This document shows, in pieces, positions 735 to 51,158 of a stretch of DNA of 64,000 nt. The position numbers and the translations under genes were made by a program. Each line of letters opens with the position of its first letter. Positions within the stretch are counted from its first letter, which is position 1. This stretch comes from Bactericera cockerelli (taxonomy: Eukaryota > Arthropoda > Insecta > Hemiptera > Triozidae): NCBI GenBank assembly GCA_024516035.1, contig CM044962.1:7226659-7290658 (forward strand), in the 5' to 3' direction. The notes below the pieces were generated by a model. It had not been told where the DNA came from. It saw nothing but the letters and a program-made list of their open reading frames with translations, and searched no databases.

Positions 735-3700
735 GTGAGTGAATGTTAATAAATTCTGAAGATATCTTAGAAGCCAAATAAAAATGACTTAGGATGGGTC
801 CTCTGTAGATATAAAATAAATATAAAAAATAAAACTAATGATTTATTTATTATTAGAGAAGATTATTACATCGGGAAGAAAATGAGGAATATGGAAGTAT
901 CAGGAAAGAGAGGCAGAGGTAGAATTAAAAAATCGTGGAAAAGTTGTGTTATAGAGGACATGAGAGAAAAAGGAGTAAGACCAGCTGATGCACAAAATCG
1001 ATTGAACTGGAAGAGACTAACCAGAAATGTCGACCCTGCTTAAGCGGGATAAGACAGAGCAAAAGAAGAAGATTATCTAGTGTTAGACATCATTTAGAGA
1101 TTTAGGTTGCTAAACAATTTAAATCCTTAATGTTCACAGAGATATATAAAAAAAATTTGACAAAGATTTAGAGAGTAAGTTGATAGGTTGATAGAGCGCA
1201 CGAATGGCTCAGTGGTTAAGCACTCGCTTGCCATGCGGAAGGTCCCGGGTTCGAACCCCCGCGCCGACAAAAATTTGTATTCAAAATTTGCTTACAATTG
1301 TTTGTAAGGGATACCTTCCGGTGCGCTCGTGTTGACCCAGCACCTGAATGGGAAGTATTGTGTCACTTCTCGCCCATCAGAGGGGAGGCATACTACGGGA
1401 TGGGCAGGCTACAACACAGACACACGCGTGTACAGTAGCTCCTGTTTCATGACTACGAAATAAAAAAAGGCTGTGAAACGCTCATCTTTAAAAAAAAAAA
1501 ATAGGAAAGAAAGAAATTTCGCTGGGAAGTTGTAAGGACAAATCGCAAGCACCTCAAACTAATAATAATAAATAATAATATCGCCTTATTTATACTGCCC
1601 GATTAGGACTATTCAGTCCCATTATTCCAGCAGTAAGCCTAAGACTTATTATTATGTGGTAAAAATCCCAAATGGCAGGAAAACTTGTCATGTCCCGGCT
1701 GGGTTTCGAACCCGCAACCTCTGGATTCATAGAGTGCCGCCTTTACCACTGAGCTACCGGGACATGTATTTGATGTAACTTTGTAACATATAACGGTACA
1801 TGTAACTTTGATGAACCCACTTTCCCCTCTTATTGGATGTATTTCTTTTATTATCATTTTATATTTTTTTAAATTATTTAACGTTAAGTTTGTTATTGTT
1901 TTTTATTGATACTCTTTTTATTATTATTATTGTTATATTTTTTTCAATCCAATTAATTTCAAATTTTAATTAATCATGCCTCACATCTCTCGTTTTCAAA
2001 TTAACACTTCTTTTTTTTAATGTAAATAAGATATTTTTAATATGGTGAAGCATTTCATTTAACTTTATTTTAATTTATAAAAAATGAAGAAATAGACCCA
2101 AACACCAGCTTATTTGCTGAAATGGGTCTATAAAACTCATTATTATTTTTCTAGGTACTAATTTTATAAATTGTATGTATTATATTCTTTTACTGTTATT
2201 TGTTTGTACCAAATTTAAAACTAAATATATATTTGAGTATGTCAACAAAAAAAAAATCTCGTTGGTGTTTCAGATGCACCCCCCCAGGAGGCTGAGCCGC
2301 AGAGCTCGGAAGAGGCTCAGCACAATGAGGAGGAGCCCGACTTCTGTCCTGTCATATCCAGCGTCACCTCGCTCCACACCACCGCCTTTGTAAGCTCCTA
2401 TCTCTACCCGATCATCTAGCCAGCCTCCGTGGCGCAACGGTTGTGACCTCTGCCCGTGGTCCAGACATCCCGAGTTCGATCCCCGGGTTGGGCACAATTT
2501 TATATAAAAAAATCTAAAAAAAACAAAAAAAAAAATGGTTGGGTGGAAGAGCTCAAGCAATTTGAGAGTTCTGCCATTAAAGCCTAAAAAAAAAAAAAAA
2601 ATCACATCTTTTCTAAGAAGCTTTTCTCATCAGCTTAGGAAAAGAACCTTTGTAAAAATCCAATATTGTTAATAAATAAATGAAATGTTTAAAAAAAAAA
2701 TCTTCCGTCTGAAGTATAGAACACCTGAGTCTGGCATTTCCGGCCCAACGCAGGCTGAGTGAGGTTAATGTGGTCGGTGCTTCAAGTCCGAGTTTGGATA
2801 TTTGTATGTATATTTTATCTATGTTGTCTATCTTCTCTTTTCTTGTTTATATTGTTCTTAATTTTGTATTTTAATTTTTATAATTACTTGTATGTAGTAT
2901 GTACACATGTCCTATTAAAAAATAATTACCTAATAAAAATAATATTACGACATCTGATTTCCCAGACCTCCCAGGATTCAAACCTTGTATGTAGTATGTA
3001 CAATGTACAGTTGTACACATGTCCTATTAATAAAGAATTACCTCATAAAAATAATATTACGACGTCTGATTTCCCAGACCTCCCAGGATTCAAACCTTGT
3101 ATGTAGTACGTGCAGTATACACATGTCCTATTAATAAAGAATTACCTCATAAAAATAATATTACGACATCTGATTTCCCAGACCTCCCAGGATTCAAACC
3201 TTGTAAGTATGTAGTACGTGCAATGTACACATGTCCTATTAATAAAGAATCAGTATAAACAGAAAAGTGAGAAGTTGTACTAGATGTACATGAATATCAG
3301 AACATACCTATCAGAATTACCTAATAAAATATCAGAATTATCAGAATTACCTAATAAAAATAATATTACGACATCTGATTTCCCAGACCTCCCAGGATTC
3401 GAACCCGGAGCCCGCGGGTGCCGCCCCCTCCTGCTTCTCCATCGCCAACCCCCTGGACAGCTCCCAGTCCTCCATCCTGGTGCAGATTCCGGCCCTGGAG
3501 GAACTGGAACAGGAGAGACTGCTCAAGCGCTTGCCCATCCCGGCCCTGGACTACGCAGTGAGTAGTTTTTTTATTATTTTACTTCCGAGAAATTTCTAAT
3601 ATTAGAAATCGGAAGTATTGTGTTCGTTTTTGTAAAAAAAAATAATATATTTTTTTGCTCCGCTTTCAATTTTTTTCATATTTCTGGACGTTTCATAACC

Positions 3701-5439
3701 TCCTGAGCAACTTTGGTTTTGTGTCGGTCTGCTAAAAATATTCCTTGTAAAGCGCAAATCTCGGAAACTACTCAACGGATTTTTATGAAATTTTGCACAC
3801 ATATTATAGGAGACGTTCTGTAGATGGTCCCATTTTAAATTCATCAAATTCATACTAGCGCTTCTGCGTGAAAGAGACCATGCGCCTGACCACTTTTTAC
3901 TTAAACGCTTATATCTCGTGAACGGTACACCAGATTTTGATGAAAATTTGTATGTATATGGATATTATTGTGTTGCATAGGATAGGCTATTAATATTTAT
4001 TTTTAATTTATTGTATTTCAACTCTGATATTTTAGAAAATCCGAAATTTTAAACAAAAAAGTCAAAAAATAAGGTGCCACGACTTGCCGATACAGAATTT
4101 TTTGTAAACAATGTGAAACAATCACGAGGAAGTATTGTGTCCATAATTGGCAGTGTTCTTTTTATTTTTTAAATAACAATAGTGTTTTTGTTATCTATCA
4201 TATTGTGTTAATCACGTGATATCACAACTACTCAAACTCGCTTTACTAAATCTACGCTCAAACCCGGACTTGAACCACCGCGACCTCCAGGTTACAAGTC
4301 CGCCGCCTTATCGATCAAGCTACTAAAAAAAATATAAAAAATGGAAGAGAATGCCGTAGGCATTAGCACCGCCCTTGATCAAGTTTTGTTTAATAATTTC
4401 AATTTTATTTCTTGTAAATTGTATATACTATATTTTGTAAATAAAACTTGATTAAATCTGTTTAATAAAAAAATCAATTGTTTTATTTTTTATTTCTTTT
4501 TTGTATAGTACTAAGATTTTTTCTAAGAGGCTTCTAAAATTATTGTTCACATGTTTCAGATGTTCTCCAAGAACCAGTCGCTGCACAACACAAGCCAGTT
4601 CCCGTCTCATCTGCTCCGACTTAAGTCTCCTGAGACACTCAAGCGCATGCTGGCTGAGTCCCGACTCGTGCTCAACTACAAGTGCAGCGCGGAGACTTGT
4701 GACTTTGCCAGCTCCTCGGCCGAGGAGTTCATTGGTCACTGTCGCGAGCACGTTCGATCCAAGGGCAAGAGTGAGTTTTGTTTACGTTTTCATTTACGGT
4801 TTCCATGACAACCGAAAAATGAAGTTTGACTTGTGTTTACAGTTTCCATGACAACCGAACTTGTGTTTACAGTTTCCATGACAACCGAAAAATGAAGTTT
4901 GACTTGTGTTTACAGTTTCCATGACAACCGAAAAATGAAGATTGAGTTGTGTTTACAGTTTCCATGGCAACCGAAAAATGAAGATTGAGTTGTGTTTACA
5001 GTTTCCACGGCAACCGAAAAATGAAGATTGAGTTGTGTTTACGGTTTCCATGGCAACCGAAAAATGACGATGGAGTTGTGTTTACGGTTTCCATGGCAAC
5101 CGAAAAATGAAGATTGAGTTGTGTTTACAGTTTCCATAGCAACCAAAAAATTAATGTTACGTTGTGTTTACAGTATCCATGGCAACCGAAAAATGAAGAT
5201 TGAGTTGTGTTCACAGTTTCCAACGCAACCGAAAAATGAATATTGAGTTGTGTTTACAGTATCTAATGGGAACTGAGCTTGTGATCCAAAGTGAAGAGTT
5301 AGGCTTGTATGCAGAGACGTTTTTCGATCTCTACAGTGGTCACTATAGCGTTATGTGTCAAAATAGCTGATTTCACTCTGCAGAGACAAATTTTTTGAAG
5401 GGCCTGTGAACTCTTTGACAAACACACTCACTCTCTCTC

Positions 5440-5487
<48 letters not shown>

Positions 5488-5564
5488 TCTCTCTCTCTCT
5501 CACTCTCTCTCTCTCACTCACTCACTCAGTCACTCACTCACTCACTCACTCACTCACTCACTCA

Positions 5565-5604
<40 letters not shown>

Positions 5605-8600
5605 ACACACACAACACTCACACATACATTCAATTATTTTTTTGTTTTACTTTCAGAGCGAGGGCCAGGTTCTTTCAAAGGGAGCCCATGGGAGCTGTGC
5701 TGCTACTGTGGCAAGCGCTACGTGAACGCTCCCAGCGACCTGGTCCTGCATATGAAGATGGAACACGGCTATTGTATCCACCAGTGCGCGTACTGTTTCT
5801 ACCGGGCCTACGCTCAGGCCTCTGTCTACTGGCATCAGGTATGCTTATCTTATTTTGTCTCTATCTATCTATCTTTTATTAGATTATAGTGGTGCATGTC
5901 AACATCTATGGTCATACACACCACTGTAGCTGTAGTAAAGCTACATGAGATCTATGAGATTAGTCTCTTTCAAAAGTGGTATAAGTTTTTCTTGTTGGTC
6001 TACCAGTAGCTGTGAAATTGTGGTGGGTAGTTGTAGTTTTGTTTTGATGTTGTGGAATTTTCTGCATTCGTCAAGAATATGGTGTACAGTTAGTGGTTGG
6101 TTACAAGTGTCACAGGTGGGTGGGTCTGTTTTATTCATGAGGTAGCTATGAGTCAAGTTAGTATGGCCAAGTCGGAGTCGTGTGATGGCTACTTGTTGGT
6201 GACGGGTTAGCTTGGCAGGGAGAACAGTGGTTTTGATATTTTTCTTTATTGCTAGTAGCTTGTTATTTAACTCAGATAGCCATTCTAGTCCTCATTTTTG
6301 TAATATGGTTTTTCGAAGTTCATCTTATTTTGTAATTTGTAATTAATGTAATGAAACAGGAGCTACTGTAGACGCTTGTGGTCTGTGTTGTAGCCTGCCC
6401 ATCCCGTAGTATGCCTCCCCTCTGATGGGCGAGAAGTGACACAATACTTCTTTATACTGTACTGTAAATATTTTTTTTTTTATCTTTGTTAATAATTTGA
6501 TGTTGTTTGTATTGTATAAAAAATAAAGTATATAAAAAAAAATGCTCAATTCAATTCAATTTTCCTAGCGACCTAGTCCTGCATTAACTGCGCGATTCCC
6601 TGCAAAAAGACAGTGATGTTCATGGCCACAACACCCGTAACAGAGGAAAATACGTATATGCAGTCCAAAATGGTTCATAATCAATGGTGGATCTTGTATA
6701 TGAGGTTGTACTGGTTGCACACTTACTCCCTTGTATCATCTACTTAATATTGGATACTTAATGTTTGTTATAATCATAAGATATACCTATATTTATAAGA
6801 TAATTTATTGTCTTTCCTCTATATATCTTAACTATATATTTATGTAGGTATCTTAACTATATGTATATGTATTAATGTCAAATAAACATGGGTTTACCCC
6901 GTCAATTTATTAAAATTAAAATCTATGACCAATAAAATAAAACTCAGCCCGGCGCACTGCCATGCGCTCAGAGATATATTCACCGACAGTGTCCGTTCTT
7001 CTGTGCAGGAATACGCCCACCCGAACCTATTCTATTCTATTCTTTGCAGGAATACGCCCACCCGAACCTATTCTATTCTATTCTATATTTTGCAGGAATA
7101 CGCCCACCCGAACCTATTCTATTCTATTCTTTGCAGGAATACGCCCACCCGAACCTATTCTATTCTATTATTTTGCAGGAATACGCCCACCCGAACCTAT
7201 TCTATTCTTTGCAGGAATACGCCCACCCGAACCTATTCTATTCTATTCTATTCTATTCTATTCTATTCTTTGCAGGAATACGCCCACTGAACCTATTCTA
7301 TTCTATTCTATTCTATTCTTTGCAGGAATACGCCCACCTGAACCTATTCTATTGTATTCTTTGCAGGAATACGCCCACCCGAACCGGCCGATCCGCATGT
7401 TCGCCCTCCCGCCCATGCACGAGGCAGACCTGTACGCCCACCACCCCGACGCCCGCTCCCTCGAGCTGATGAGGGCGTCCCTGTGCGAGCACATCCTCCC
7501 CTACTGGTGCACCGACTGCAAATTTTCCACCTACCTGCTGAAGACCTTCCTCACCCACTTCAGCTCTCAGCACAGTGACCTGGCTCTGTACCAGTGCGGC
7601 CTCTGCAGCAACCAGTCGATGACGCTCTCGGCCCTAGTCCTGGTGAGTGATAATAACTCAAGCTAGTCCTGGTGAGTGATAACTCAAGCTAGTCCTGGTG
7701 AGTGATAACTCAAGCTAGTCCTGGTGAGTGTTTTTTTGTTGTTGCATTGTTAGGCAAGGCCATTCCATACAGCCAAAATGGCAAGGAAGAGAATGCCGTT
7801 GGCATTAGCACCGCCCTTGATCAAGTTTTGTTTTGTTAATTTTAATTTCTATGTATGTGTATATTCCATGTTATTTGTAAATAAAACTTGATCCAACATG
7901 TTTAATAATAATGTTGGGTTGGGTGGAAGAGATTGCCAAAGGCAATAACCCCGTCCTTTAGTTAGGACATATATTATGTATATATTTGCTTATTTTTTCT
8001 TTATTTTTTTATTCTATTATATTGTATTTTAATTTGTAATTATTTGTTTTGTATATAATATGTCCTATTAATAAAGTGTAAATAAATAAATAAATAAGCC
8101 AGCGTCGATGGCATGTTGAATACACCGGTTCCCTTCAGAACACCGAAGTTAAGCGACATCCAGCGAGGTTAAGACTTGGATGGGTGACCATTCAAATTCT
8201 AATTCTCGTGACCCTGGCTTTTCCCGGCCCCACTCAGGCTGGGTGAGGTCAATGTGAGTAGCAGGTTTGTGAGTTTCCTGCGAATGGAGGGTAAAACCCC
8301 CGTCGTGATATGACCATGGCAGTTGAAAGCGACGTTAAACCCCACTTAAAAAAAAAAAAAAAAAAAAAAAAAAATAAATTTTAAATCAAGCTATATACCT
8401 AGTATACAGTCCTGGATTTTTTACATACATTCTTGGACCTTCAGGTACAACAATCGTATCTGGTCAATCGTTAAGAAATTTAAAAAAAATACATGTATAA
8501 GAAATATAACGAGAAAAAAATGTTGCTAACAATCTTTAACTCAGCTAATCCTCATGAGTGTTATTATTATTATTCTATGATTCTTATATATTTTTTAAAA

Positions 8601-9110
8601 TACAAATTCATTAACTCATAGATAAAACTACTCCCACATATCTTCATGGTCCCTAACACACTCGTCATTATTATTCTAACTATCCTATCCTTTATCCTAT
8701 AAAATATATAAGACCTGTTTGACTGCTGGAGTAAAGGGACTTTTCAGTCTTACCTCGGCAGTATAAAACAGGTATATTCTAAAAAAAAAAAAAAAAAATC
8801 TAACTCTTCTGCTCCTCCTCCCCCAGCACTACAAGCACATCCACCGCAACCAGCTGTGGCACTGCTCCTACTGCGCCTACAACTGCGAGACTTTCGACCA
8901 GATCCAGGTGCATCTCATCACCTTGCACCCTCAGCTGGTGCCTCAGTGTGTCATCCGGTGCAACAAGGCGGGCCAGGTGAGTGTGTGTGTGTGTGTGTGT
9001 GTGTGGGGTGTGTGTGTGTGTGTGTGTGGTGTGTGGTGCATCTCATCACCTTGCACCCTCAGCTGGTGCCTCAGTGTGTCATCCGGTGCAACAAGGCGGG
9101 CCAGGTGAGT

Positions 9111-9141
<31 letters not shown>

Positions 9142-9246
9142 GGTGTGTGTGTGTGTGTGAGTGTGGGTGTGTGTGTTGTGCATCTCATCACCTTGCACCC
9201 TCAGCTGGTGCCTCAGTGTGTCATCCGGTGCAACAAGGCGGGCCAG

Positions 9247-9315
<69 letters not shown>

Positions 9316-9501
9316 TGTGAGTGTGTGTGTTGTGCATCTGATCACCTTGCACCCTCAGCTGGTGCCTCAGTGTGTCATCCGGTGCAACAAGGCGGGCCAG
9401 GTGAGTGTGTGTGTGTGTGAGTGTGTGTGGTGCATCTCATCACCTTGCATCCCCAGCTGGTGCCCCAGTGTGTCATCCGGTGCAACAAGGCGGGCCAGGT
9501 G

Positions 9502-9533
<32 letters not shown>

Positions 9534-9556
9534 GGTGTGTGTGTGTGTGTGTGTGT

Positions 9557-9597
<41 letters not shown>

Positions 9598-9678
9598 TGT
9601 GAGTGTGTGGTGCATCTCATCACCTTGCACCCTCAGCTGGTGCCTCAGTGTGTCATCCGGTGCAACAAGGCGGGCCAG

Positions 9679-9742
<64 letters not shown>

Positions 9743-12700
9743 TGCATCTCATCTTCTTGCATCCCCACCTGGTGCAGCAAGGCGGGCCATGTCAGTAAAC
9801 TTTCTTTGAGAAAAAAATGCCCTCTTTGCAAATAACAGAATATAACAATAATCTTTAGTGGAAGGTAACCGTGGTGTAGACTGATCCTGCATTAAAAAAT
9901 TCCTGCATTAGGTGGGATTCGAACCTAAAGATCCCTGTGCTACCTGGATTACCAGACTACAGCCTTAACTTGACTGCCAATGCATCAATGCTGTTGGTTG
10001 AGCATTTATTAGTGTTAACCACTTTCGTCAAATCACAATTACTCAAATTTCTTAGAAGCATTAGCTTAGGAAAAATACCTTTGTATATGTTATTCTGTTA
10101 TTAAATAAATAAATAAATTTAAAAAAAAAATCGAAACTTGGAGCTCGACCCACTGACCTCCACGTTATGAGTCCGTCGCCGTATCGACCGAGCTACTGAG
10201 GTTGGTTAATGGGTAAAAATATACTACTTATAGACTATAATGAGTTGGGTGGAAGAGATATCCACAGGCAATAACCCCACCCTTTAGGTAGGACATTAGT
10301 GTTATTTCTTTTTACTTAATTCTTTTTCATTTGTTTGTTTTTTCTTAATTTTATACTATTAACATTGTACTCTGTCCTCCTAATAAAGCATACTATAATA
10401 ATAATAATATAATTTTGAAAATTTCCCGCTCTTTCTCAGGAGCTGAATCACACACAGGATGATCTCATGGTGATCACGCTGAGCGAGCGCGCGCTCACTT
10501 CGGCAGAACTCGTGACTGTAACCGATGACGTCACCAGGCACTCGGGCAACCTCGGCTCCGACCCGAACACTGCCGAGAGCACTTCGAGCAGCGTCGCCAC
10601 CGCGTCAGAAAAAGATTCGTCCGGCAACAGTGCCAAGGAGGTGGACGTTTTAGACGTGATGGCGCCTTCAACAGTGTCGAAAACGCCTGCAGAAAATGCG
10701 CCGGCAAGCATTCCGACCTCGTCTGATGTGACGGAAGGGGCAGGTGATGGCTTGGTCACCGCTCCACCGGAGAGATTCTCAGTGGCGAAGATTTGTACCG
10801 GTGTGGCAATATAGGTGAGTTGGCAATCATTCTGTTATTTTTTTGGTTTCTGTATAGCGAGGTGACTGGAGTGATACTTGACTTTATAGTCCTCCAGCGC
10901 GACACTGGTCTTCTCCCTGTTTAGCGTCCCCCAGTCGGACTGTCCTTCTCTGTAAAAATAGAAAAAATATTGATTTATTATATACCGGTCTGTCCCGGTA
11001 GCTCAGTCCCGGTAGCTCAGGCGACACTCTGTGAATCCAGATATTCCAGAGGTCGTGGGTTCGAAACCCAGCCGGCACATGACAAGTTATCCTCCCATTT
11101 GGGATTTTTACCTCATAATAATATGTTTTGATACTGCTGGAATAATGTGACTTTAATAATCGGGAAGTATAAATAAGGCGATATGTATCCAGATAGTCCA
11201 GAGGTCGTGGATTCGAAACCCAGCCGGCACATGACAAGTTATCCTCCCATTTGGGATTTTTACCTCATAATAATATGTTTTGGTACTGCTGGAATAATGG
11301 ACTTTAATAATCGGGAAGTATAAATAAGGCGATATGTATAATACTCCCTTGGTATTTTCAACTAGACATTTGTTAAACGTGTAGCAAATACCTTAATTGC
11401 TTCTTTTTTTTAACTTTGTTATGTCAAACTTTTTCTCTATGGGTAACATATTATATAATTTTGCTAAAAGTTATAGTATGTAGATTGTAGAAGTTCACTG
11501 TATCAAATTTATTCCTCATATTTTTTATGTTAATTGCTAAATATTAGTTCCATTTCTTGAATTCTGCATTAGCTTTAAGTGAGTAGCAATGTAATTGGTT
11601 AAAGTCGATACTTGTAACGGCTCTGACTGTTTTGTTTATTCACTATAATAAAATAAAATTGAAATTAATATTTATTATTATTAATTTCCAGGCTGCAGCT
11701 TCGCCGCGGCCAAGGCTCCTCTGCTCCGGGAGCACCTGATGCTGTGCGACCACTTCCGCAACCAGAGCGGGGGCGGGGGCATCCGCTGCCACCACTGCGC
11801 CCGGAGCTTCCAGACCATCCCCCGCCTGCTAGACCATGTGGAGACGCACGGGGCGGCCAGGTGGGTGGAGCCTAGACATTGGATCTGGGCGTCCATATAG
11901 TCCATATAGAGAAACGGAAGGGTTGGGTGGAAGAGATTGCCTAAGGCAATAACCCCGCCTTTAGTTAGGACATATATTATGTATATATTTATTTTGTTTT
12001 TTCTTTATTTTTTTTTTTCTTCTATTATATTGTATTCTAATTTGTAATTATTTGTGTTGTATATAATATGTCCTATTAATAAAGTGTAAATAAATAAATA
12101 AATAGACATGAAAGGAGCCTAGACATTGGATCTGGGCGTCCATATAATTTATTTATTTACACTTTATTTTTTTTACAAAACAATCATCCAACAACAACAA
12201 AAAAATAACAATAAATCAAAAATAAAACTTAGAAGTATGTACAAAAAGAAATAAAAAACGATTTTAATTTGTATTACAATTGTTTTGTAATCCGGGGCGA
12301 AGTGAATGCCTAAGGCATTCTCTGCCACTTAACCTCTCACCACCGTGATTTAGGTATCAATACCCCTCTCACGGACACGGAATTATTATAATAGACTACT
12401 AAATCAAATTTATTTATTTTATTTTTATTTATAAACATTTGGATCAAGCTTTATTTACATCTTTTATATACAATGAACATGGTAACAAGTTAGAAATAAA
12501 TATAAACAAAGCCTGATCAAGGGTGGTGATGATGGCTTCGGCATTCTCTTCCTTTATACATTTTGAAACGGAACAGAGCGAACAGTCTTAATGAAATGCT
12601 CTATTGCTCTCCAAAATCAAATCAAAACCTCTTTACCCCAGATACCTATTCTACAAATATTGGCCAAAACTGTCCAATGAATAGGTTGATGGTAACAGGG

Positions 12701-15700
12701 ACCACATTTTTAACTAGAAGTGACATAGACATTTTTTATCACTCTTTGTAACAAATTAAAGATAAATATTTAAGTAATTTATAGATAACATATTATGTAA
12801 AAATGGAGAAACCCGTTAATTTATAAAAATAAATATAAAAATAAAAAGGTAAACAAAGAGACAAACATTCGTTTCTCCAAAAATAACCGAGTCCCCCCGA
12901 CTCGGTTCTTTTTGGTTGAAACGGATGGTTCTAGCTTCTGATTGGTTCTCATTCTGTGTCCTTTTGATAAATGAACAATTAAATGAGAGCGCCATATTTT
13001 GAATCTGCATTTTAAATTTATTTTTGCAATCAAATGTGCTAAGAACCAATCAGAGAAGACGATACAGCTGATTATAGAAATTTCATCCGTTGTTGTTGTT
13101 CTCTTCTTCTTTCACTCACCTTTTCCCAATTTTATTTGGGGTCGGCGTTCCCTTCTCTAATTCTACCCCGCCACAGCTTCCTGTCTAATGCTTCCTCTTG
13201 CCTCCACAGCCTTTCTCTCTCATATCTTCCTGAACCTTGTCCCTCCATCTCAACTTTGGTCTTCCTCTCTTTCTCTAACTCCTATAAGCTAAGTCTAACT
13301 CCTCAGAAGTTAGACTTAGCTTATAGGAGATGTATTGTTTATAATATCTTTCTTGTATAAATAAATAAAAGTATTCAAATTCAATTCTTCCCTTGTATAT
13401 AAATTTCATCGTTGTTGATCTCACAAATGACCCATTGTGTTTCTCCTCCACGCCACCAGGTACCGCTGCGGACTGTGCAGCTTCCGTCACCCCCGCTCCA
13501 AACCCGTGCACCTCCACGTGAGGAAGAATCACACCTCCCGCTCCGACCTGGTGGAGGAGTCATACCACAAGGGCAAGCCCGACGAGTTCTCCATTGTGTT
13601 CCCCAAGGTAAGGAGACTGCCCCACCCAGGCTGGGTGAGGTTATAGAACACATACCACACGGGCAAGCCCGACGTGTTTTCCATTGTGTTCCAAAAGGTA
13701 AGAAGACTGCCCCCCCCAACCAGGCTGGGTGAGGTTATAGGACACATACCACAAGGGCAAGCCCGACGAGTTCTCCATTGTGTTCCCCAAGGTAAGGAGA
13801 CTGTCCCACCCAGGCTGGGTGAGGTTATAGGACACATACCACAAGGGCAAGCCCGACGAGTTATCCATTGTGTTCCCCAAGGTAAGGAGACTGCCCCACC
13901 CAGGCAGGGTGAGGTTATAGGACACACACCACAAGGCCAAGCCTGGTGAATTCACCATAGTGTTCCCCAAGGTAAAGCCCACCCAGGCTGGGTGAGGTTA
14001 TAGCACACACACCACAAGGACAAGCCTGGTTAATTCACCCTAGTGTTCCCCAAGGTAAAGCCCCAACCAGGCTGGGTGAGGTTATAGGACACACACCACA
14101 AGGCCAAGACTGGTGAATTCACCATAGTGTTCCCCAAGGTAAGGCCCCAACCAGGCTGGGTGAGGTTATAGGACACACACCACAAGGACAAGCCTGTTGA
14201 ATTCAACATAGTGTTCCCCAAGGTAAAGCCCCAACCAGGCTGGGTGAGGTTATAGGACACACACCACAAGGACAAGCTTGGTGAATTCACCCTACTGTTC
14301 CCCAAGGTAAAGCCCCAACCAGGCTGGGTGAGGTGATAGGAGACACACCACAAGGACAAGCCTGGTAAATTATATTATTATATTATTAATATAGTATGCT
14401 TGATTAGGAGGACAGAGTACAATGTTAATATTATAAAATTAAGAAAAAACAAGCAAATGACAAAATAAATTAGTAGGTAAAAATAAATACCTAAAAGGCG
14501 GAATTATTGCCTGTGTCAATCTCTTCCACCCAATCCTTATTCACCCTAGTGTTCCCCAAGGTAAGGAAAACTCCAAAAATTTCCACCTCCAACTGATTTT
14601 TCCTAAGAAACTTTTTCTTTTCAATCTAGAGAGACATAAAAGTTTTGATTTCTGTTGTTCAGAATTTTTTTTTTAACAAATTAACGGGCATAGCCTATGT
14701 TTTATTTTTAGAAAATATTTTAAAGTTCCGTTTTGAATATGATGTTAAACAAAGAGCGGATAACTGAGGCATGGCTTGAGGCTTAAGGTGGGGCGGGAAT
14801 CCCCCCCCCCCCTTGAGGACCTCGCCAGCCCCTGACTTAACCTCAACACACACCACTGATTCAAAACCATAACGAAATAGAATAGAATAAAAGTGAGAAT
14901 AGAATAAATTACTATACCCATAAATAATGTCTAAATCATAAAATTATATTTTATTATAAAATTATATTTTATTATATTAGCATAGGCCTTCAGCCTAGCA
15001 GAATTCAAAAACTGTAAATATGAGTATAATGTAAAATAGGTAGTTTTTAATATTTTGATAATTATATAAGTTTAGATTATTATTTTGTTACTACCTATTT
15101 TGCCACCTAGGCTGAAAAGAGATAACTTTAGTATATTTTTAAACCCTCATGTTTGTAAATTTCTTTAAATGATTAACTCTTCAATAAAGGCTATTTTATT
15201 TTTTTATTTTATTTTATTTTTTATATTAGCATTAAGAAAAAAAATGTACAAACCTGAAAAAATAACGTCAAAATTACAAAACCAATTTTTTTTATATACA
15301 AAAGTAGTGTACTAATACAATCTGTTTATAGTCCCCCAGCCTATAGTTTATAGCCAGACCAGCAGTCTGGCTGGGGACTATAAACAGGGATTAGACCAGT
15401 CTTCTGGCTTAAGTGGCAAGGGGTTAAGTGGCAGAGAATGCCTAAGGCATTAACTTCGCCCCGGGTTACAAAACAATTGTAATTATTATTGATCTTTATT
15501 ATTATTATATTATTTCTGTACATATTTCAAAGTTTTTTTTTTTTAATTATTGTTTTCCTTGTTGATGATTGTTTTGTAAAAATAAATAAAGTGTAAATAA
15601 ATAAAATAAAAATAAATAAATAAATAAACTAATAAAATCTGTTTCGACTTCCTCCACAGTCCATCCGCGACAACTCGCAACTGCCGAGCCGGCGGGGGCG

Positions 15701-18700
15701 GGAGGAGTCGCCCCGCCACAAGGTCGGCTTCTCGCTGGACGATCTGGACACGCTGGCCAAACTCAACCCGACCCCGAGTCTCCCCCTGCTGTGCTCCGCC
15801 TGCGGCTACCGCGCCAACACCACCCTCAACCTGATCCGCCACCTGCGGGCAGGCGCCCACCTGGCGGCGCCCACCAGGTGGGCCGACCTCACGAACGACA
15901 TCCCGAGCCTCGCGTCGGGCGGCGACCTCATGTTCAACAAGATGACGAACCACGCGCTCAGCTCCAATCTGGGCGCCAGTGTGAAGACGTCGCTCGTGAG
16001 TAGTGCCATATTATAAATAAATAAAATAAAATAGCCTTTATTGAACAAATAATTTCAAAACATTTTAAACAGTGTTACATACACAAGTAGAAAACAAGTA
16101 GAAAAATTGTTCTCAACCATGAAATTGTTTTTTTTTTAGGGACAAAAGAGACAAAATTATTTTTTCGTTCTATTTACTGCTCCCTTTTTTTTCTAATTTT
16201 AAGTTGTCACCAATTTCTTCATGCTGGCTGAAGGTTGAAGTGCCATATTATTGAAACAAATTCAGTCAAGTCAACCGACCTCAGTAGCTTGATCGATAAG
16301 ACGGTGGACTAAGACGGCGGATTTCTGAAAGCCATTTCTCGAATGTCAAAAAAAAATCTGACGCTTCCGATTTTTTTATCGAATGACTAGGAATTTTTTT
16401 CCAATGACCGCTATTTCACGTTTTTACATTTTTCGATTTTTTTTTTTCTCTTGAGGATTCTCGACGTTCAAGCGACATTGACGAACTCAGATAGTTACTA
16501 GTACCTACGCAGGGATTTTTACCGGATGACTTGGACTTTTTCTCCAATCACCGGGATTTTTACAGATGATTAAAACCCTTTTTTTGTCAGAAAATTTCTG
16601 ATGGTCAATGTAGGATTAGAACAAATCAGACGGGCCGGTTGGGATTTTCATCAGATGTTTGGTACTTCTTCCAACTACGTATTAGATTTCTTCTCGGCTT
16701 CTTCTTCTATTGTAGACAATTCCGTTGAGTACTAAAAATTTTTACCGACCTCAGTAGCTTGATCGATAAGACGGCGGACTTGGTAACCTAGAGGTCGGTG
16801 GTTCAAGTCCCGGTTTCAGCGTGGATTTAGTAGAGCGAGTTTGAGTGGTTGTGATATCTCGAAAGTGATTAACACAAATATGATATATTTTTTTTAATCA
16901 GTCAAGCTTTTTTTTACAATGAGAGTATACATGGAACCGACCTCAGTAGCTTGATCAATAAGACGGCAGACTTGGTAATCTAGATGTCTGTGGTTCAAGT
17001 CCCAAGTTAAGCATAAAGCTAGTTTGAGTAGTTGTGCTATAACGATTGTGATCAACACTAAAAGGATGGCTTTTTTTCCCTAATATACATACATGGAATA
17101 TTTACAAAGTGAAATTCTTCAAACAAAACCAGGTCAAGGGTAGGGCTAATACCTGCGGCATTCTCTTTCATTGAGCAGAGAATAAGGATATCACGCACGG
17201 TGACGTGGGTTTGATCTTTTTCTGCTCTGTAGTTGAAGATCCGTGGTCAACCCACTCATACTTATCCCGGTAGCTCAGTGGTAAAGGCGGAACTGTGTGA
17301 ATCCAGAGATTCCAGAGGTCGCGGGTTCTAAACCCAGCCGGGACATGACATGTTATCCTCTCATTTGGGATTTTTATCACATAATACTATTTCTTGGGCT
17401 TTCTGTTGAAATAATGGGACTTCATAGTCCTAATCGGGCTGTATAAATAAGGCGATATTATTATTTCACCAGCCGCGACATGACAAGCTATCCTCCCATT
17501 CGTTATATTGACCACATAATAGTACGCCTGGGGCTTACTTGTGAAATAACGGGACTCTAGTCCTAATCGGTCAGTATAAGTCAAGTGGTTAACGTGCTAG
17601 TCTGGTAATCCAGGAAGCGTAGGGATCCGTTGGTTCGGTTTTTTCCTCATTCATTTGAGTTTGTGACCACATAATAAGACTCCGAGGGTTAGGTGGTAGA
17701 AAATACTCTGAGCGTTAACCTCGCCCTGTGGGGTTACCTTCCACTAAAGAGTGTTATTATTATTAATAATTATAATATACCCTTTCGGTCCTCACCTTCT
17801 AATTTAATACCCCTCAACAGGTTGATGAATTTGTGTAATGTTTATTCTAATATGAACTACTCACAAAAAAATGGGGTGCTTTGTAACTGATCTAAAAGAT
17901 ATTATTTACGCATTATGATTTTCTTTATTTAAAATTTATTAGCTTATTCTGACTTTTATTCTTAAAAATGCTGTTATTTTTTGTACCATTATTATTTTAC
18001 TTTAGTCAATTATAAGTGTATTAATGATGGTATAGGTGGAAAACAACTGTTTTGTAATGCACTCTAAATAAAATAAATAAATTGAAATTCAAATATATTT
18101 CTCCCCAGGCCGAGGACTTGAACTTTGATAAGATTCCCAAGTTCGTTCCCATCAACAAGCGGTACGTGTGCACGTTCTGCTGTCCCCAGTACCTCTCCCA
18201 AGACGAGGTCATATTCAAGCACCACTTCAGCTCTCTTCACTCGGACGAGAACATTTACATGTAAGTCTAAGTTCTTTCCATACCATATTCAAGCACCACT
18301 TCCATATCACATTCAAGCACCACTTCCATACCATATTCAAGCACCACTTCAGCTCTCTACACTCTGACGAAGACATTTACATGTAAGTCTTAAGTTCTTT
18401 CCATACCATATTCAAGCACCACTTCCATATCACATTCAAGCACCACTTCCATACCATATTCAAGCACCACTTCAGCTCTCTACACTCTGACGAAGACATT
18501 TACATGTAAGTCTAAGTTCTTTCCATATCATATTCAAGCACCACTTCCATATCATATTCAAGCACCACTTCCATATCATGTTCAAGCACCACTTCAGCTC
18601 TCTACACTCTGACGAAGACATTTACATGTAAGTCTAAGTTCTTTCCATATCATATTCAAGCACCACTTCCATATCATATTCAAGCACCACTTCCATATCA

Positions 18701-21700
18701 TATTCAAGCACCACTTCAGCTCTCTACACTCAGACGAGAACATTTACATGTAAGTCTAAGTTCTTTCCATACCATATTCAAGCACCACTTCCATACCATA
18801 TTCAAGCACCACTTCCATATCATATTCAAGCACCACTTCAGGTCTTTACATTCGGACGAGAACATTTACATGTAAGTCTAAGTTCTTTCCATACCATATT
18901 CAAGCACCATTTCCATATCATATTCAAGCACCACTTCCATATCATATTCAAGCACCACTTCAGGTCTTTACATTCGGACGAGAACATTTACATGTAAGTC
19001 TAAGTTCTTTCCATACCATATTCAAGCACCACTTCCATATCATATTCAAGCACCACTTCAGCTCTCTACACTCGGCTGAGAACATTTACATGTAAGTCTA
19101 AGTTCTTTCCATACCATATTCAAGCACCACTTCCATATCATATTCAAGCACCACTTCAGCTCTCTACATTTGGATGAGAACATTTACATGTAAGTCTAAG
19201 TTCTTTCCATACCATATTCAAGCACCACTTCCATATCATATTCAAGCACCACTTCAGCTCTTTACACTCTGACGAAGACATTTACATGTAAGTCCAAGTT
19301 CTTTCCATACCATATTCAAGCACCACTTCCATACCATATTCAAGCACCACTTCCATATCATATTCAAGCACCACTTCAGCTCTTTACATTCGGATGAGAA
19401 CATTTACATGTAAGTCTAAGTTCTTTCCATACCATATTCAAGCACCACTTCCATACCATATTCAAGCACCACTTCCATATCATATTCAAGCACCACTTCA
19501 GCTCTTTACATTCGGATGAGAACATTTACATGTAAGTCTAAGTTCTTTCCATACCATATTCAAGCACCACTTCCATACCATATTCAAGCACCACTTCCAT
19601 ATCATATTCAAGCACCACTTCAGCTCTTTACATTCGGACGAGAACATTTACATGTAAGTCAAAGTTCTTTCCATACCATATTCAAGCACAACTTCCATAT
19701 CATATTAAAGCACCACTTCCATATCATATTCAAGCACCACTTCAGCTCTCTACACTCAGACGAGAACATTTACATGTAAGTCTAAGTTCTTTCCATATCA
19801 TATTCAAGCACCACTCCCATATCATATTCAAGCACCACTTCCATATCATATTCAAGGATCACTTCCATATCATATTCAAGCACCACTTCCATATCATATT
19901 CAAGCAACACTTCCATATCATATTCAAGCACCACTTCCATATCATATTCAAGCACCACTTCCATATCATATTCAAGCACCACTTCCATATCATATCCAAG
20001 CACCACTTCCATATCATATTCAAGCACCACTTCCATATCATATTCAAGCACTACTTCCATATCATATTCAAGCACCACTTCAGCTCTTTACACTCGGATG
20101 AGAACATTTACATGTAAGTCTAAGTTCTGTCCATATCATATTCAAGCACCACTTCCATACCATATTCAAGCACCCCACTTCCATATCATATTCAAGCACC
20201 ACTTCCATATCATTAGTAGTTTGATCGATAAGGCGACGGACTTGTAACCTGGAGGTCGGTGCTTCTTGGCCCGGTTTCAGCGTAGATTTAATAAAGGAAG
20301 TTTGCATAGTTGTGATATCACGAAAGTGATCAACACAAATATGATATTTTTTTAATTTTTTAATTCAGTCAAGCTTTATTTACCAACACAAATGTGATAA
20401 CAACTCTCTTTCTTTTCAAGTTGCAATATAAGAACTCTCCCCAGAAGTTCGCATAAGCTTAGGATATAATATCAAGAAATATTATTACTGTACAAATAAA
20501 CAGAACCATAATTATTCTATTCAATTCAACGCTCCACCTCTTATTATTACTATGAACCTCTTTATTAGAAGAACATATATGTATACAAACAAATAATGGT
20601 AAAAATTAAAATACAAAATTGACAATATTAATATAAACAGGAAAAAATAAACAAAATATATACATATGTCTTATGCATTAAATAACATCATGGTCTATTG
20701 TGTTCCTCTATAAGTACGGGGTGTACTTTACAGGAACCTGTAGGCTTTTTTTTAAGAAAAGGGCGGGGTTATTGCCTATGGCAATCTCTTCCACCCAACC
20801 CTGTTCTATGCTCCGTCTCTGCCCCCCCCCCCCCCTCAGATGCCCCACTGCCTGCCCGGCACCTCCCCCGATGACCCCATCACCATAGACAAGATCAGCG
20901 TCCACCTCAGGTTCCACGGAGGCAAACTCTTCAAGTGCAGCTACTGCGACTTCGTGCACCACGCCAGGTCAGTCTCGGATAATAATACTTTTTAGTGGAA
21001 GGTAACCACCAGTCTGATAATAATAATAATAAGATCGCCTTATTTATACTACCCCATTAGGACTATTAAAGTCCCATTATTCCAGCAATAAGCCCAAGAC
21101 ATATTATTATGTGGTAAAAATCCCAATTGGGAGGATAACTTGTCATGTCCAGGCTAGGTTTCGAACCCACGAACTCTGGAATCTTTGGATCCACAGAGTG
21201 TCGCCTTTACCACTGTGAATCCAGAGATTCCAGAGGTCGTGGGTTCGAAACCCAGCCCGGACATGATAAATTATCCTCCCATTTGGGATTTTTACCACAT
21301 AATAATATGTCTTGGGCTCACTGCTGGAATAATGGGACTTTAATATTCCTAATCGGGCAGTATAAATAAGACGATATTACTATTATTATCAAACAATTTC
21401 GATCGAACTTTCTTTACAATTTATGGGTACAAAGAAAAGGTATAACTTTGTAAGACTTCTCTTAGAAGCTCTTCAAAGCTTAGGAAAAGTACCTTTGTAT
21501 AAATGTTTCTTTATAAAGAAAATAAATAAATAAACTATAAAAAAAAACTATAGTTAACAAAACCTGATCAAGGGTGGTGATAATGCTTTTGGCCATTCTC
21601 TTTATATGAGAGAGTTCAGCTTATATCTTGTGGACGGTACACCCGATTTTTATTCATTTTTTTTTTTTGGCTTTCTTTTATATGGCATGATTCTCCTTCA

Positions 21701-24700: not shown

Positions 24701-27700
24701 GCCACAGGCAATAACCCCGCCCTTTATGTAGGACATTAACTTCATTCTCTTTTTTTTTGTATATTTGCTTAATCTTTTTGTTTTTCTTTATATTTCATTG
24801 TATTCTACTGTATATATTTTTTGTTCTACCTAATAAGGCTCCCTCTAATAATAATAATAATACACGATAGCCCCTCATATGTTCTCGCTTTGTTTCGCAT
24901 GGGCGCAGGTGCTGGACACCCAGGACGACACCTATGGGCGGCATGGGGAGCCAGTGGGCGGGCCAGGGGGCAGCACTTCTCCTGTCCGCGGTGCGGGGCG
25001 TTCCGGACGCGGGATGCGGCGAAGCTGCGGGAACACCTCTACCAGGAGAATGAGCACCACAGGTAACCCTATTTTACTCTCGAGTAAACAGGGAGTAGAC
25101 CAGCAGTCTGGCTGGGGGACCATTAACTCTTTGACTGCCATGGCACAACTCGAGTTGTGCCAGTACACTTTCCCACCCGGCCATGGCACAACTCGAGTTG
25201 TGCTGAAAATTCAATCTTTAGGTCGATGTCGCATCAAGAGTTGTGTCACTACAGATTTCTTTTAAGTATATCTAGAAAGCCTATGTCTTGAGGATTCTAG
25301 AACTGTTTTAAATGTATTTTGTCAAATACCATTAGTTGTGCCATGGCCTGTGAGGAAGCAATTTTACAAAACACACACCTCCAGGGCCACGGCACAACTC
25401 GAGTTGTGTCAGACTAGATTACATTTGGCCGGTGGGGAAGTGTACACGTATTTGGCTTGACCGGGTAGGAAACATGTCAAGATTAGCTCTGGCAGTCAAA
25501 GAGTTAACAGGGAGTAGATTAGCAGTCTGGCTGGGGGACTATAAACAGGAAGGAGACCAGCAGTCTGGCTGGGGGACTATAAACAGGGAGTAGACCAGCA
25601 GTCTGGCTGGGGAACTATAAACAGGGAGGAGACCAGCAGTCTGGCTGGTCATAATAAATCTGTCAGTCAGTGAATCAGTGAGTCAATTCGAAATAACCTT
25701 TCTCCGAAAGTGTTTTTGAATTGACTCTTGAAATTTGCAGTGTGTTTTTAGTGGTAGTAAGAGAACATAATATGTGCCAAATTTCATCAGAACCAGAAAC
25801 AGAACCAAAAATTTAAATTTGTGAAAAACCGGGTGAATCGGTTCGTGTAAAGATAGACTTTTTTTATTTAAATATAAAACAGCTCTTCGAAACAGAAGCT
25901 ATCAGGTGCTAAGATAGACTGGCGTGCTCTGAGCGCAGAGCCCCAACCCGCCCTTCGTTTTATGTTATTGAGTTTCAACCGTCGAATAAATAAACTGAAA
26001 ACTCTTCAGGTGGCTGTGTAACCGGTGCGGTCACCGGTGTCTCCACCACAAGGATATGTTGCAGCACCACAGCTCAGAACATCCAGACGCTCTGGAGACC
26101 AACCTGTTCACCAGACTGCCTGAGAACACACTCCTGCAGGGATGGGTAAGATCCGTAGAAACATAATAATAATAATATCGCCTTATTTATACTGCCCGAT
26201 AAGGACTATTAAAGTCCCATTATTCCAGCAGTAAGCCCAAGACATATTATTATGTGGTAAAAATACCAAATGAGAGGATAACTTGTCATGTCCCGGCTGG
26301 GTTTCGAACCCACGACCTCTGGAACCTGTGGATTCATAGAGTGCCTTTACCACTGAGCTACCAGGACAGACTCATTTGTGGAAGGTAACCACCAGGCGAG
26401 GTTAATGCTCAAAGCATTTTCTAACACCTAACCCTCAGAGTCTTATTATCATGTGGTCACAAACTCAAATTAATGAGGAAAAATTCGTGCACTGGGTGGG
26501 ATTCGAACCAACGGATCCCTACGCTACCTGGATTACCAGACCAGCGCGTTAACCACTTGACTACCAGTGTACATATACCAGACTACCAGTGACAATAATA
26601 ATATCGCCTCATTTATACTGCCCGATTAGGACTATTAAGTATTATTATTATATATCTCCCTTGCCTTTATCCCATATTAGATCATGTTGATATTGGGGTC
26701 GGCAGTGTTCAACCTCATGGTTGAGGTTGGTAGGGTGGAGCACTTTTTTAATGGCTGGATGCCCTTCCTAACGCCAACGATTTTATTTGGTTATATTTCC
26801 TGATTAGGACGGCGGGGGTGTTACCCTCCATTCGCTGGGAATCGTACCAGCTACCCACATTAACCACACCCAGCCTGGGTAGGGCCGGAAATGCCAGCCT
26901 CACGTGTTTGGATGGAACAGAATTTTCTTCGAAAAGTCTGCCCCAGCCGGGAGTTGAACTTGGGAACTCTGGACTACGGGCAGTAGTCACAACCATTACG
27001 CCACGGAGGCTGGCTATTAAGTATTATTATTATTGATGAAAAACAATCCCCGCCCACAGGTGGAGCGAGTGATCGAGACTCAGCGCTCGAAGATGCTGGC
27101 GCTGAAGTCCGCTGCACCGCTCACCGCTTCCACCGGCGCTAGTAGCGCGGGGCGCCCGCCGGTGACGTCATCAGAGGACCCCCCCCGCCTGAGGGGGGGG
27201 CCAAGCCTCGGGGCCGCCCGAAGATGGGCGAGAGACGCCGGAGTCTGGACGAGGCTGCTGGCAAGACGAAGAAAGGAGGTGAGTTTCTTTATTTGTTAAG
27301 TTGTTCTTGTTGTTTGTTGTAGCTAGCTTGGCTACAGCTGGAGGGGTGAGAGATGGTCTCCAGCCAACTTTATTTCAAAGTTGGCTCGTCCTGTACCACA
27401 TATTTCTATGTGCGATCAACCATCATGAGGACTTGTACTTTTCTTTATAAGCCATTGAACCCTTAGGAGAGTTTGTTTGTTAAGTGTTTAGTTAAGTAAG
27501 TATTTGTTAAGTGGCAGAGAATGCCTAAGGCATTAACTTCGCCCCGGATTACAAAACAATAATTGTAAATAAAAATTAATATAGATCTTTATTTTATTTT
27601 TTTGTACATACTTATAAGTTTTTTTTTAATTTATTGTTATTAATATTTGTTGATGATTGTTTTGTAAAAAAAAAGAAAAGTGTAAATAAATAAGTAAATA

Positions 27701-30700
27701 TTAAATTGAACATAATAATAATATAATCGCGGTAAACGTAACGAAAAGAATCCTGTTTACAAATTACAACAGTAAAAACAGTAAACATAATATTATTAGC
27801 AAAAATTACTATTGAAAACAGCAATACCATGAGTAAGAGCTTGAGCAATGCCAACCCTCTCTATGTTTGGTAAAAAGCAATATGAAGATGATGACAATAT
27901 AACAATTGTCTGGCTGGAGTATGTTAAGTAGGGATAAGACAAGTGTCTCGCTAGAGGACTAGCCAACCTTAACTAACAAGCAAGGCTAGCTTGCAGTTTC
28001 CCCAAATTTTTATTATTATTATTATTTTAATACATGACAAGTACATGGTTCAAATATATATAACAATGACAGTTTACATATACTGAACTTAGCTAGTTTC
28101 TTTTGGCTGTCGTCATCCCACACCAAGGGCCACCACACCTATGAAGTATGGACCTTGTGTCGTAAATAAACCAACAAAAGTACACCAAACTAGGCTACCG
28201 TTATTACCTTCAAAAGCATGTAAGAAGAAAAAATAATTTGTTCATTTTGTGATTTCCTCTGTGTTAAAACTGCACAAGATGGTCGAGTTTACCGGACAGG
28301 TTCGAGGCAGTACGAGGTCTCCATTAGTTTTTCCTCCATGCTTTCCTTTTACTTTTTTTACAAGTATTTTATTATTATATATAAAAAAAAATTCATTATT
28401 TTTTATATCCTATGGAGTTCGGTGGAAGAGAAAGCCACAGGCTTTAACCTCGCCCCTTGATTCACTACATATTCTATTTTGTTTTTTTTTTTTTTTTATC
28501 ATGTCCTATTTTGTTGAATGTATGTAGTTGACCAATAAAGTGTGAAATAATAATAATGTTTGTATTCCCCTTTCCACAGCGAAACGGAAGCTGCGAGACG
28601 CCAGCCTGGAGAAGGTGCCGCCCACCGCCCCTCCTTCTCTTCCCCCTCTCCCCCCTCCCGGGGCCCCGCCCCCCACCTCCACCTGCGAGGTTATCGACGT
28701 GGAGGATACGAGTGAGGACGATTCCGCCCCCGCCCCCGCCACCCCCGCCCCTAGTCCCAAGCGGGCGAAGCTTAGTAGCGTCCTGCGTGGTGAGCTCACA
28801 CCGTCCAAGTGCGGCGCCCCCCCCGGTCCACCTCCCGCCGCGCTTGTCAAGTCACCGGTGGATGCACCGCTGCGTCTGAAGGCCGCGTTCACACCGTCCC
28901 CGTCCGGTGCGTCGAGCGAGTCCCGCCGCTCCTTGAGTGTGAACAGTGAGGACGATCGAGTTGTTGTGGCGAGAAGTGAGTTGCGAATGGCATTTTTTTT
29001 TTAACAAAATTTTATTTGTTTGTTTTTATTTTTTAGATCCAGTGGTCACCGTGGCAGAGTGAGTTAGCGCGCTAGCCATTGCACGCACGGTGACCTGGGT
29101 TCGATCCCCAGCGGGGCAGAATTTTTTCTGCTCTGTACTTGGGTGTTCGGGGTCCACTCATACCTCGTGAGGAAAAATGAGTAGCTGCTCTGTTAGCAGC
29201 GACCAGTGGCGGAATTATAGGCAAAAATAAGATATTGGGATATTAAAGATATGGAAAAGTCCTATAATTCTGCGCTACCCACTAAAATTGTGATATAATA
29301 ACACAAAGAAGCACATTTATTTATTTAGTTTTAGATCCGAGAAATTAGAAATCCGAAGTATCGTGTTCGTTTTTGTAAAAAAAAAAAAAAATAGTGGAGG
29401 CTATTCCTTGACACGCGTTCTAATGGGAATATCAACCAATCACAGTGCACTATACTAATGGCAATATCAACGAATTACAGTGCACTATAATAATGGGAAT
29501 ATCAACCAACACAGTGCACTATAGTCAGCTGATAGTGTCTATCTACCTTGGATCTAATCCTGTTTCAAATTTCGGCCTAACTAGACACTTTCCCTTAACC
29601 CGAACTATTGACCCTTACACTGGTAGTCAAGTGGTTAACGCGCTAGTCTGGTAATCCAGGTAGCGTAGGGATCCGTTGGTTCGAATCCCACCCAGTGCAT
29701 GAATTTTTCCTCATTAATTTGAGTTTGTGACCACATAATAATAAGACCCTGAGGGTAAGGTGGTAGAAAATGCTTTGAGCATTAACCTCGCTTGGTGGTT
29801 GCCTTCCACTAAAGAGTATTATTATTATTGATCGATAAGGCGGCGGGCTGGTAACCTAGAGATCGTTGGTTCAAGTCCCAAGCTCAGCAAAGTAAAGTGT
29901 GTGGCTGAGATCTACATTAGTCCTATTTTTATCTGAAAAGTGGAAGAAGCCATATGGACATGTTTTAAACTGGGTAAAAGTCAGAACACAGATTGCAATC
30001 ATAAGAGCTGTATCTCTCCGAATACGAGGCACGAGATACAAGCTAATCTCGTATGGATTTGAAGACGGAGCTGCACTTTCGTACATTGAAAATTAGTTGA
30101 TGAGAATGTTCTGTTCTTTTTTTTATATAAAAAATATATCTAACAATATGACCATAAAAAATAGTCCTATTTCATAATGTGGTGACCTCTCTACTCCCCC
30201 AGACCTCTACTCCCAGGATAGCAACACTGGGGAGGCTAACCTCCTCCCGTCCCCTTCACTCCTCACGGCCGCCGCCAAGCGACCTTTCGCTTCCCTGGAG
30301 TCGAACCAGGCGGACTCGACCGGTGCCAAGAAAACCAAGACTCTCTCCTCGCATACCATGGAGCTCGTGAAGAAAAACGGTGAGTAGAAATTGTGTTATT
30401 GTTATTATTAGTTGAATAGGATCTTTAATAGTTGTTGTTGTTGTTGTGTAGCCAGCTTGGCTACAGCTGGAGGGGTGAGTGATGGTCTCCAGCCAACTTT
30501 ACTTCAAAGTTGGCTCGTCCTGAACCACATATTTCTACGTGCGATCAACCCTTAGGAAACTGCAAGCTAGCCTGGCTTCTAAGGGTTGGCTAGTCTGTTA
30601 TCTGTTTATAGTCCTCTAGCGAGACACTGGTCTTCTCCCTGTTTAACGTCCCCCAGCCAGACACTTTTTTTAATAGTCGTCTACACTTGTTATAATAATA

Positions 30701-50690: not shown

Positions 50691-50789
50691 AGCTTTATTT
50701 AGCTCAATACACGGGCGGACCCTATACTATCTAATTTTAATTTTACCTGAACTATCAAAAAAATAAACTATTAAACTTAATACTAATGG

Positions 50790-51103: not shown

Positions 51104-51158
<55 letters not shown>

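Follow-up and report, generated by a model that had tools for sequence, protein, structure and literature searches.

How do the splice sites of one gene come to be multiplied, border after border, into tandem arrays? This question is raised by a 64,000-nucleotide stretch of the psyllid Bactericera cockerelli (assembly GCA_024516035.1, contig CM044962.1, positions 7,226,659 to 7,290,658; hereafter the window), in which a plus-strand gene that occupies the window up to 36.8 kb and encodes a large zinc-finger protein has seven exon borders lying in tandem arrays of 3–15 copies each. Arrays were found with Tandem Repeats Finder (TRF) and individual copies were then aligned; copy counts include the genuine site throughout. 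We think it probable that these are junction-spanning minisatellites like the ‘mirages’ of amphioxus, produced by tandem duplications of exon ends that are tolerated, with a bias towards junctions in addition.

Splice sites within tandem arrays

At the seven junctions the AG or GT is intact in 51 of 51 copies, each of which carries about 9–69 bp of exon. Acceptors are repeated at exons 3 (4 copies), 6 (9) and 23 (3), and donors at exons 6 (4), 7 (6), 10 (10, one of them detached) and 12 (15). A first-pass annotation of this DNA had reported arrays carrying the splice site and the exon end at exons 3, 6, 7, 10, 12 and 23, and all are present. It had placed the phenomenon between 2925 and 20215, a range outside which the copies at exon 23 and in a neighbouring TP53BP1-like gene lie; the remaining arrays that it named are there. 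The features are listed below; all were identified by TRF and alignment, the last by alignment.

2900–3405, plus strand: acceptor array of exon 3 (exon C, 3387–3557)
4793–5260, plus strand: donor-side array of exon 4 (exon D, 4560–4770), 43-bp unit, directly behind the donor
6998–7384, plus strand: acceptor array of exon 6 (exon F, 7367–7642)
7631–7731, plus strand: donor array of exon 6
8908–9742, plus strand: donor array of exon 7 (exon G, 8827–8976)
13562–14371, plus strand: donor array of exon 10 (exon J, 13460–13607)
18204–20213, plus strand: donor array of exon 12 (exon L, 18109–18260)
31613–32153, plus strand: acceptor copies of exon 23 (exon W, 32116–32263)
50564–51780, minus strand: donor copies of TP53BP1-like exon e4 (51670–51878)

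The units differ from junction to junction (a slash marks the exon border). Exon 3 has four copies of TGATTTCCCAG/ACCTCCCAGGATTC, three in a tandem array of 104–112 bp and the last being the genuine exon; either of two candidate AGs, 9 bases apart and both within the tandem unit, may be the one used. The nine acceptor copies of exon 6 read ...TTTGCAG/GAATACGCCCACCCGAAC (one reads ...CTGTGCAG) and are separated by (CTATT)n, and the donor of the same exon is repeated as a 26-bp unit with four copies of CTAGTCCTG/GTGAGTG. Behind exon 7, six copies comprise the final 69 bp of the exon and GTGAGTG(GT)n. The exon 10 array has an 84–94-bp unit with nine copies of 46 bp of exon end, GTAAGG and intron, and the detached tenth donor copy lies at 14523–14566. 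The 15 donor copies of exon 12 are arranged in units of 98–122 bp that contain 24-bp subunits. At exon 23, two 104-bp copies at 31628 and 31732 lie 283 bp upstream of the genuine acceptor (32097–32153).

Exon 4 differs in that its copies read TTGAG in place of the GTGAG of the donor. The unit nevertheless aligns to its own donor with 5 edits in 28 positions, whereas about 400 random 28-mers come no closer than 8 edits and 22 other donors no closer than 9. By this alignment the array descends from the exon 4 donor and has since lost its GT; the first-pass annotation, which had called it a donor-adjacent minisatellite, was right about its place behind the donor and missed its derivation from it. 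The same annotation held that the TP53BP1-like gene is likewise affected, which proved correct: the gene is real, and beside the genuine e4 donor (51780–51663) there is a fragment from 51637 and one further complete copy (50671–50564).

Exon pieces that recur in introns continue from an exon end. When exons were tiled with 30-bp probes, 33 of the 513 that lie no more than 40 bp from an exon end recurred in a flanking intron, compared with 7 of 1,311 interior probes. All seven belong to exon 7 or e4, and in both of these exons probes near the end recur as well; probes of this length are blind to units with a short exon part, as at exons 3 and 6.

The 24 plus-strand exons of the zinc-finger gene were mapped through frame and splice consensus. 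One protein search found no match and a second gave four distant ones, among them Timema and Armigeres, and tblastn with a distant insect homologue backs several exons (for example 4, 5, 6, 7, 9, 11 and 12). Several borders, such as both ends of exon 9 and the end of exon 12 near 18258, are backed by homologue alignments as well; at exons 3 and 23 the acceptors were placed by frame and consensus only. At exons 6, 10 and 12, the frame runs into a stop when it is read on through the donor attached to the exon, and the site at the exon edge would therefore be the usable one there. The minus-strand gene at 48–56 kb is a TP53BP1 homologue with six mapped exons; it matches solved TP53BP1 structures (best E = 4.4e-17), and its protein is 70% identical to that of Diaphorina citri and 65% to that of Cacopsylla melanoneura. 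As these closest relatives are psyllid proteins, amphioxus was rejected as a source of the window.

Junctions compared with random positions

Of the 15 minisatellite arrays in introns of the zinc-finger gene, 7 span a junction, where 1.29 would be expected (P = 7.4e-5; P = 2.8e-4 after arrays are removed from the intron length). The seven strongest arrays (TRF score ≥ 300) are all junction-derived when exon 4 is counted (P = 3.8e-7, or 0.0059 with introns quartered); counted as six of seven, they give P = 2.2e-5 as the gene stands and 0.056 with introns quartered. Non-junction arrays in the introns of this gene number three, or 1.3 per 10 kb compared with 2.67 in a genome sample; as they are no denser than in that sample, the introns are not simply rich in repeats. 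Taken by itself, the TP53BP1-like gene has no significant junction excess (1 of 3 arrays, P = 0.25).

To set these counts against the rest of the host assembly (565 Mb in 1,032 contigs, searched in part), we took twenty 10-kb stretches of chromosome C8 at 1.5-Mb spacing, with one step omitted near the window. They hold 52 minisatellite arrays in 194.9 kb, which corresponds to 0.0209 arrays per junction-like point. With the same caller, 7 of the 56 junctions in the window have arrays against 1.17 expected (P = 1.6e-4). GC-rich open frames of the random stretches were tried as a further exon set and abandoned, as the 329 candidates were too noisy.

A comparison of junctions elsewhere with random positions, which the first-pass annotation had proposed, also yielded an excess in a small separate sample. 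A scan with the Pfam myosin-head domain gave 77 exon matches, 12 of which were fetched together with their 160-bp flanks. Every one of the 24 borders could be read, and three of them (P = 0.013) bear arrays of the same build:

L038: donor array, 20-bp unit, 7.8 copies, reaching the end of the stretch
L042: acceptor array, 38-bp unit, 3.1 copies
L043: donor array, 83-bp unit, 2.1 copies

Both kinds of boundary are hit, with three acceptors and four donors in the zinc-finger gene and one acceptor and two donors in the myosin sample. Pooled, the two samples have arrays at 10 of 80 junctions, where 1.67 would be expected (P = 6.9e-6; exon 4 and e4 left out of the count), which is about 1 junction in 8 in each sample and about six times the rate of random placement. 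Further clear cases, left uncounted, are L032 (acceptor) and the kinesin exon L045 (donor), the latter chosen from the table of 85 matches of a kinesin PF00225 Pfam scan for its repeated partial exon. These counts support a non-random placement of arrays at junctions in the samples.

Turnover and sequence context of the arrays

Exon 11 of the zinc-finger gene has two further copies on the same chromosome, 96% identical. Their surroundings, p2 and p3, each hold part of the gene only; they may be alleles that the assembly has retained, or else partial paralogues. The exon 12 array is absent from both (15 donor copies in the window, one each in p2 and p3). Donor copies number four in the window and seven in p2 at exon 6, six in the window and five in p3 at exon 7, and 10, 6 and 3 over the three locus copies at exon 10. 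The exon 6 acceptor, with nine copies in the window, is represented in p2 by the genuine site and a single long copy that includes about 118 bp of exon, and the exon 23 acceptor has three copies in the window and six in p3. Because the locus copies differ in the presence of arrays and in copy number, array turnover appears to be fast. In the exon 12 intron, p2 and p3 share a different sequence that matches that of the window at its edges only, so one gain or one loss of the array would suffice. Many genes occur twice on one chromosome (for example on C1, C3, C5, C6 and C8) with equal or near-equal scores, and these pairs are either unpurged haplotypes or recent segmental duplicates.

Some properties of the junctions accompany the arrays. 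Array-bearing donors are nearer to consensus, with 5 of 5 scoring 8–9 of 9 compared with 9 of 23 others (P = 0.019, a small and uncorrected test). Junction arrays also have more copies than other arrays in the window in a Mann–Whitney test (P = 0.020 against intronic arrays, 0.007 against intronic and intergenic arrays), a small, uncorrected test on copy numbers entered by hand. On the sense strand, array-bearing exon ends are C-rich (median GC skew −0.23 versus 0.00; P = 0.012, uncorrected, six measures tried). The first 50 bp of the intron are richer in GC at arrays (0.42 versus 0.32, P = 0.022, uncorrected), although those bases belong to the arrays. Exon GC content (P = 0.92), intron skew (P = 0.94), exon–intron contrast (P = 0.071) and intron length (P = 0.063; all uncorrected) do not differ significantly between array-bearing junctions and others.

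Simple runs lie within or beside some units: GT at exon 7, CTATT at exon 6 and CT at TP53BP1 e4. No GT, CT or CTATT run occurs in the units of exons 3, 10, 12 and 23. Within the window, p2, p3 and the small fetched stretches, (CTATT)n is confined to the sense strand before 3′ splice sites, in three genes or gene copies: at exon 6 here (7027–7319), exon 6 in p2 (L004), exon 20 in p3 (L011) and the myosin exon L032. None of the 20 random stretches has such a run. Genome-wide, (CTATT)n followed by TTNCAGG has 166 matches versus 2 for the backward pattern, a control not matched for CTATT. The 100 of these 166 matches that were listed have 70 distinct ends at 28 places, at least five of which, the exon 6 array included, have at least four ends 29–288 bp apart.

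Other repeats were seen in the same DNA. Coding exons of the zinc-finger gene hold short tandem repeats at 440–549, 33350–33430, 34916–34985 and 35219–35333 (units of 21, 15, 36 and 48 bp; TRF), and since these coding repeats, with units divisible by three, occur too, the gene appears to be generally prone to tandem duplication. Dispersed elements at, for example, 8100–8345, 42720–42930 and 55510–55760 resemble by eye what we take to be short interspersed nuclear elements derived from tRNA and 5S RNA. Elements of this kind sit in introns and between genes, and a piece resembling one lies inside the unit of the exon 10 array. A dispersed 38-bp repeat, AACAGGGAGTAGACCAGCAGTCTGGCTGGGGGACTATA, also forms tandem arrays of its own, two of them in the window (25506–25648 and 49877–49991; 3.8 and 3.0 copies) and one in p3 (29796–30187; 10.3 copies). 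The frames of exon 8 (10440–10814) and of exon 24, the last (33158–36768), are broken by apparent small indels, which are perhaps consensus errors of the assembly.

Origin of the junction bias and relation to known systems

In the reading that we prefer, of tolerated exon-end duplications with a junction bias, a tandem duplication reaching from within the exon end into the intron would copy the splice site along, and unequal exchange or slippage could then multiply the unit. A complete exon with its own splice site would remain at the edge of the array, so that the gene would survive and protein coding would be unharmed, and the extra copies, we infer, would be removed as intron during splicing.

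Several results weigh against this reading or soften it. Halving the non-array intron weakens the within-gene excess to P = 0.013, and quartering it gives P = 0.23; the strength of the bias within the gene thus depends on the amount of intron gained since the arrays arose. Splice columns of the four arrays tested show no significant excess of conservation over other columns (variable columns, splice versus other: exon 10, 2/9 versus 32/81; exon 12, 0/9 versus 21/89; exon 7, 0/9 versus 4/69; exon 6 acceptor, 4/12 versus 5/17). Given this lack of significant extra conservation there is no sign that copies are kept for function, and functional preservation was set aside on the same ground. The myosin sample by itself is weak (P = 0.013): its 12 exons were hand-picked among the 22 best matches so as to cover different genes, with their sequence still unseen, and some share a gene; L043, moreover, is the near-copy of L032, itself chosen for the repeated partial exon in its table entry, and without L043 the count is 2 of 22 (P = 0.077). 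The background comes from 20 stretches of one chromosome, and at two or three times its rate 11 of 80 junctions, with one more case included, would give P = 5e-4 or 0.011. Finally, the psyllid TP53BP1 homologues, in which e5 follows e4 with no additional residues, speak only weakly for undisturbed splicing, as their introns may lack the array.

What, then, accounts for the bias? Minisatellites might arise at random, with those at exon ends surviving as well as intronic ones and with no preference for junctions. The genome sample is indeed rich in minisatellites, and the conservation test and the loss of the within-gene excess when ancestral non-array introns are taken as one quarter of the present ones both accord with such pure tolerance. 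However, repeats in the random sample are largely free to stay and so give a neutral rate, above which junctions lie six-fold in both samples, and the strongest arrays all derive from junctions. Because of this six-fold rate, tolerance alone seems insufficient and a mutational or retention bias at junctions seems to be needed; we consider the purely tolerant account rather unlikely. A bias of retention or homogenization, in which duplications happen anywhere and those at exon ends last longer, either because selection keeps the exon copy constant as a gene-conversion template or because spare splice sites act as a buffer, would fit the higher copy numbers of junction arrays. It sits poorly with the unremarkable conservation of splice columns, with the exon 4 array, which persisted despite the loss of its donor, and with the exon 12 array, whose presence in one locus copy and absence from two gives no sign of long persistence, although this may be a gain or a loss; it too strikes us as doubtful.

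Mutation directed to junctions, whereby duplications are set off by splice-site sequence (pyrimidine tracts and GT-rich donors) or by breaks linked to transcription, is a serious possibility that we would stop short of calling probable. It is in keeping with the runs in or beside the units of exons 6 and 7 and e4, with the confinement of (CTATT)n to positions before 3′ splice sites and with the near-consensus donors; the units of exons 3, 10, 12 and 23, which have no such runs, speak against it. Slippage seeded by GT or CT tracts, as the first-pass annotation suggested, fits exons 6 and 7 and e4 but not those four, and the R-loops that it also invoked are not supported, as array-bearing exon ends are C-rich, not G-rich, on the sense strand, a skew opposite to expectation. 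A wider version, in which junctions of the psyllid lineage are genome-wide hotspots of tandem duplication through junction-drawn mutation, beyond mere tolerance, with about one in eight carrying spare sites, we put forward tentatively. In exon 7 and exon 12 units, as read from the sequence, an internal AG precedes the donor by 42 and 30 bp, respectively, both phase-compatible, and under the hotspot reading such units could be recruited as cassette micro-exons, as has been proposed for amphioxus globins.

A further suggestion of the first-pass annotation was that intron gain through tandem duplication of AGGT-type segments has been caught in progress. A related idea appears in print for amphioxus globins (PMC3087553), and the exon 7 units hold a CAG upstream of the donor that would bound a 42-bp mini-exon in phase. 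Yet each unit has one kind of genuine splice site and lies inside an existing intron, which it extends, and in none of these arrays was an intron seen to have arisen within former exon, equipped with a donor and acceptor of its own; intron gain is accordingly a very improbable account. AGGT-type tandem genomic duplication is said to have given a new intron (PMC4974935); it resembles the psyllid case in that tandem duplication touches splice signals and differs from it in that psyllid units lengthen existing introns and carry one kind of site each. Copies manufactured by the assembler are the least credible source, and we give them hardly any weight. The frame breaks in exon 8 and the last exon, and the frequent presence of genes as near-equal pairs on a single chromosome, might invite the suspicion; however, array copies differ from one another by substitutions that groups of them share and so fall into subfamilies, other copies of the locus have arrays at the same junctions in differing copy number, and unrelated genes show the same build.

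The first-pass annotation had also supposed that minisatellites usually avoid such precise placing, which overlooks the mirages of amphioxus. According to two reports, these are minisatellite-like tandem units of 10–160 bp over either exon–intron boundary, many keeping AG or GT, unstable in length between haplotypes and with splicing reported as undisturbed, in Adh3, the globins BflGb6 and BflGb9, troponin C and PGBD5 (PMC3087553, PMC3902484). Psyllid units likewise span either boundary and many keep AG or GT; copy number, which in amphioxus varies between haplotypes, varies here between three locus copies in one assembly, which may be alleles or paralogues. The psyllid case is unlike them in its host, an insect and not a cephalochordate, in the nine junctions that are affected in two adjacent genes when exon 4 and e4 are included, in a frequency of about 1 junction in 8 in two samples, in up to 15 donor copies and in (CTATT)n before acceptors. 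The open-access literature that was searched holds no report of junction-spanning arrays in insects and, under this description, has them in amphioxus only. Zhuo et al. (2007, cited in PMC3087553) reportedly linked human alternatively spliced introns to tandem arrays. The psyllid arrays thus belong with the mirages of amphioxus; as far as we have seen, the lineage and the rate are new.

For annotation, the arrays are a practical matter, as repeated exon ends can mislead gene predictors. A second, distant lineage in which about one-eighth of sampled junctions are affected would make the process measurable, in the positions of the breaks, in the choice of the spliceosome among identical sites and in whether such arrays ever become new exons or introns.

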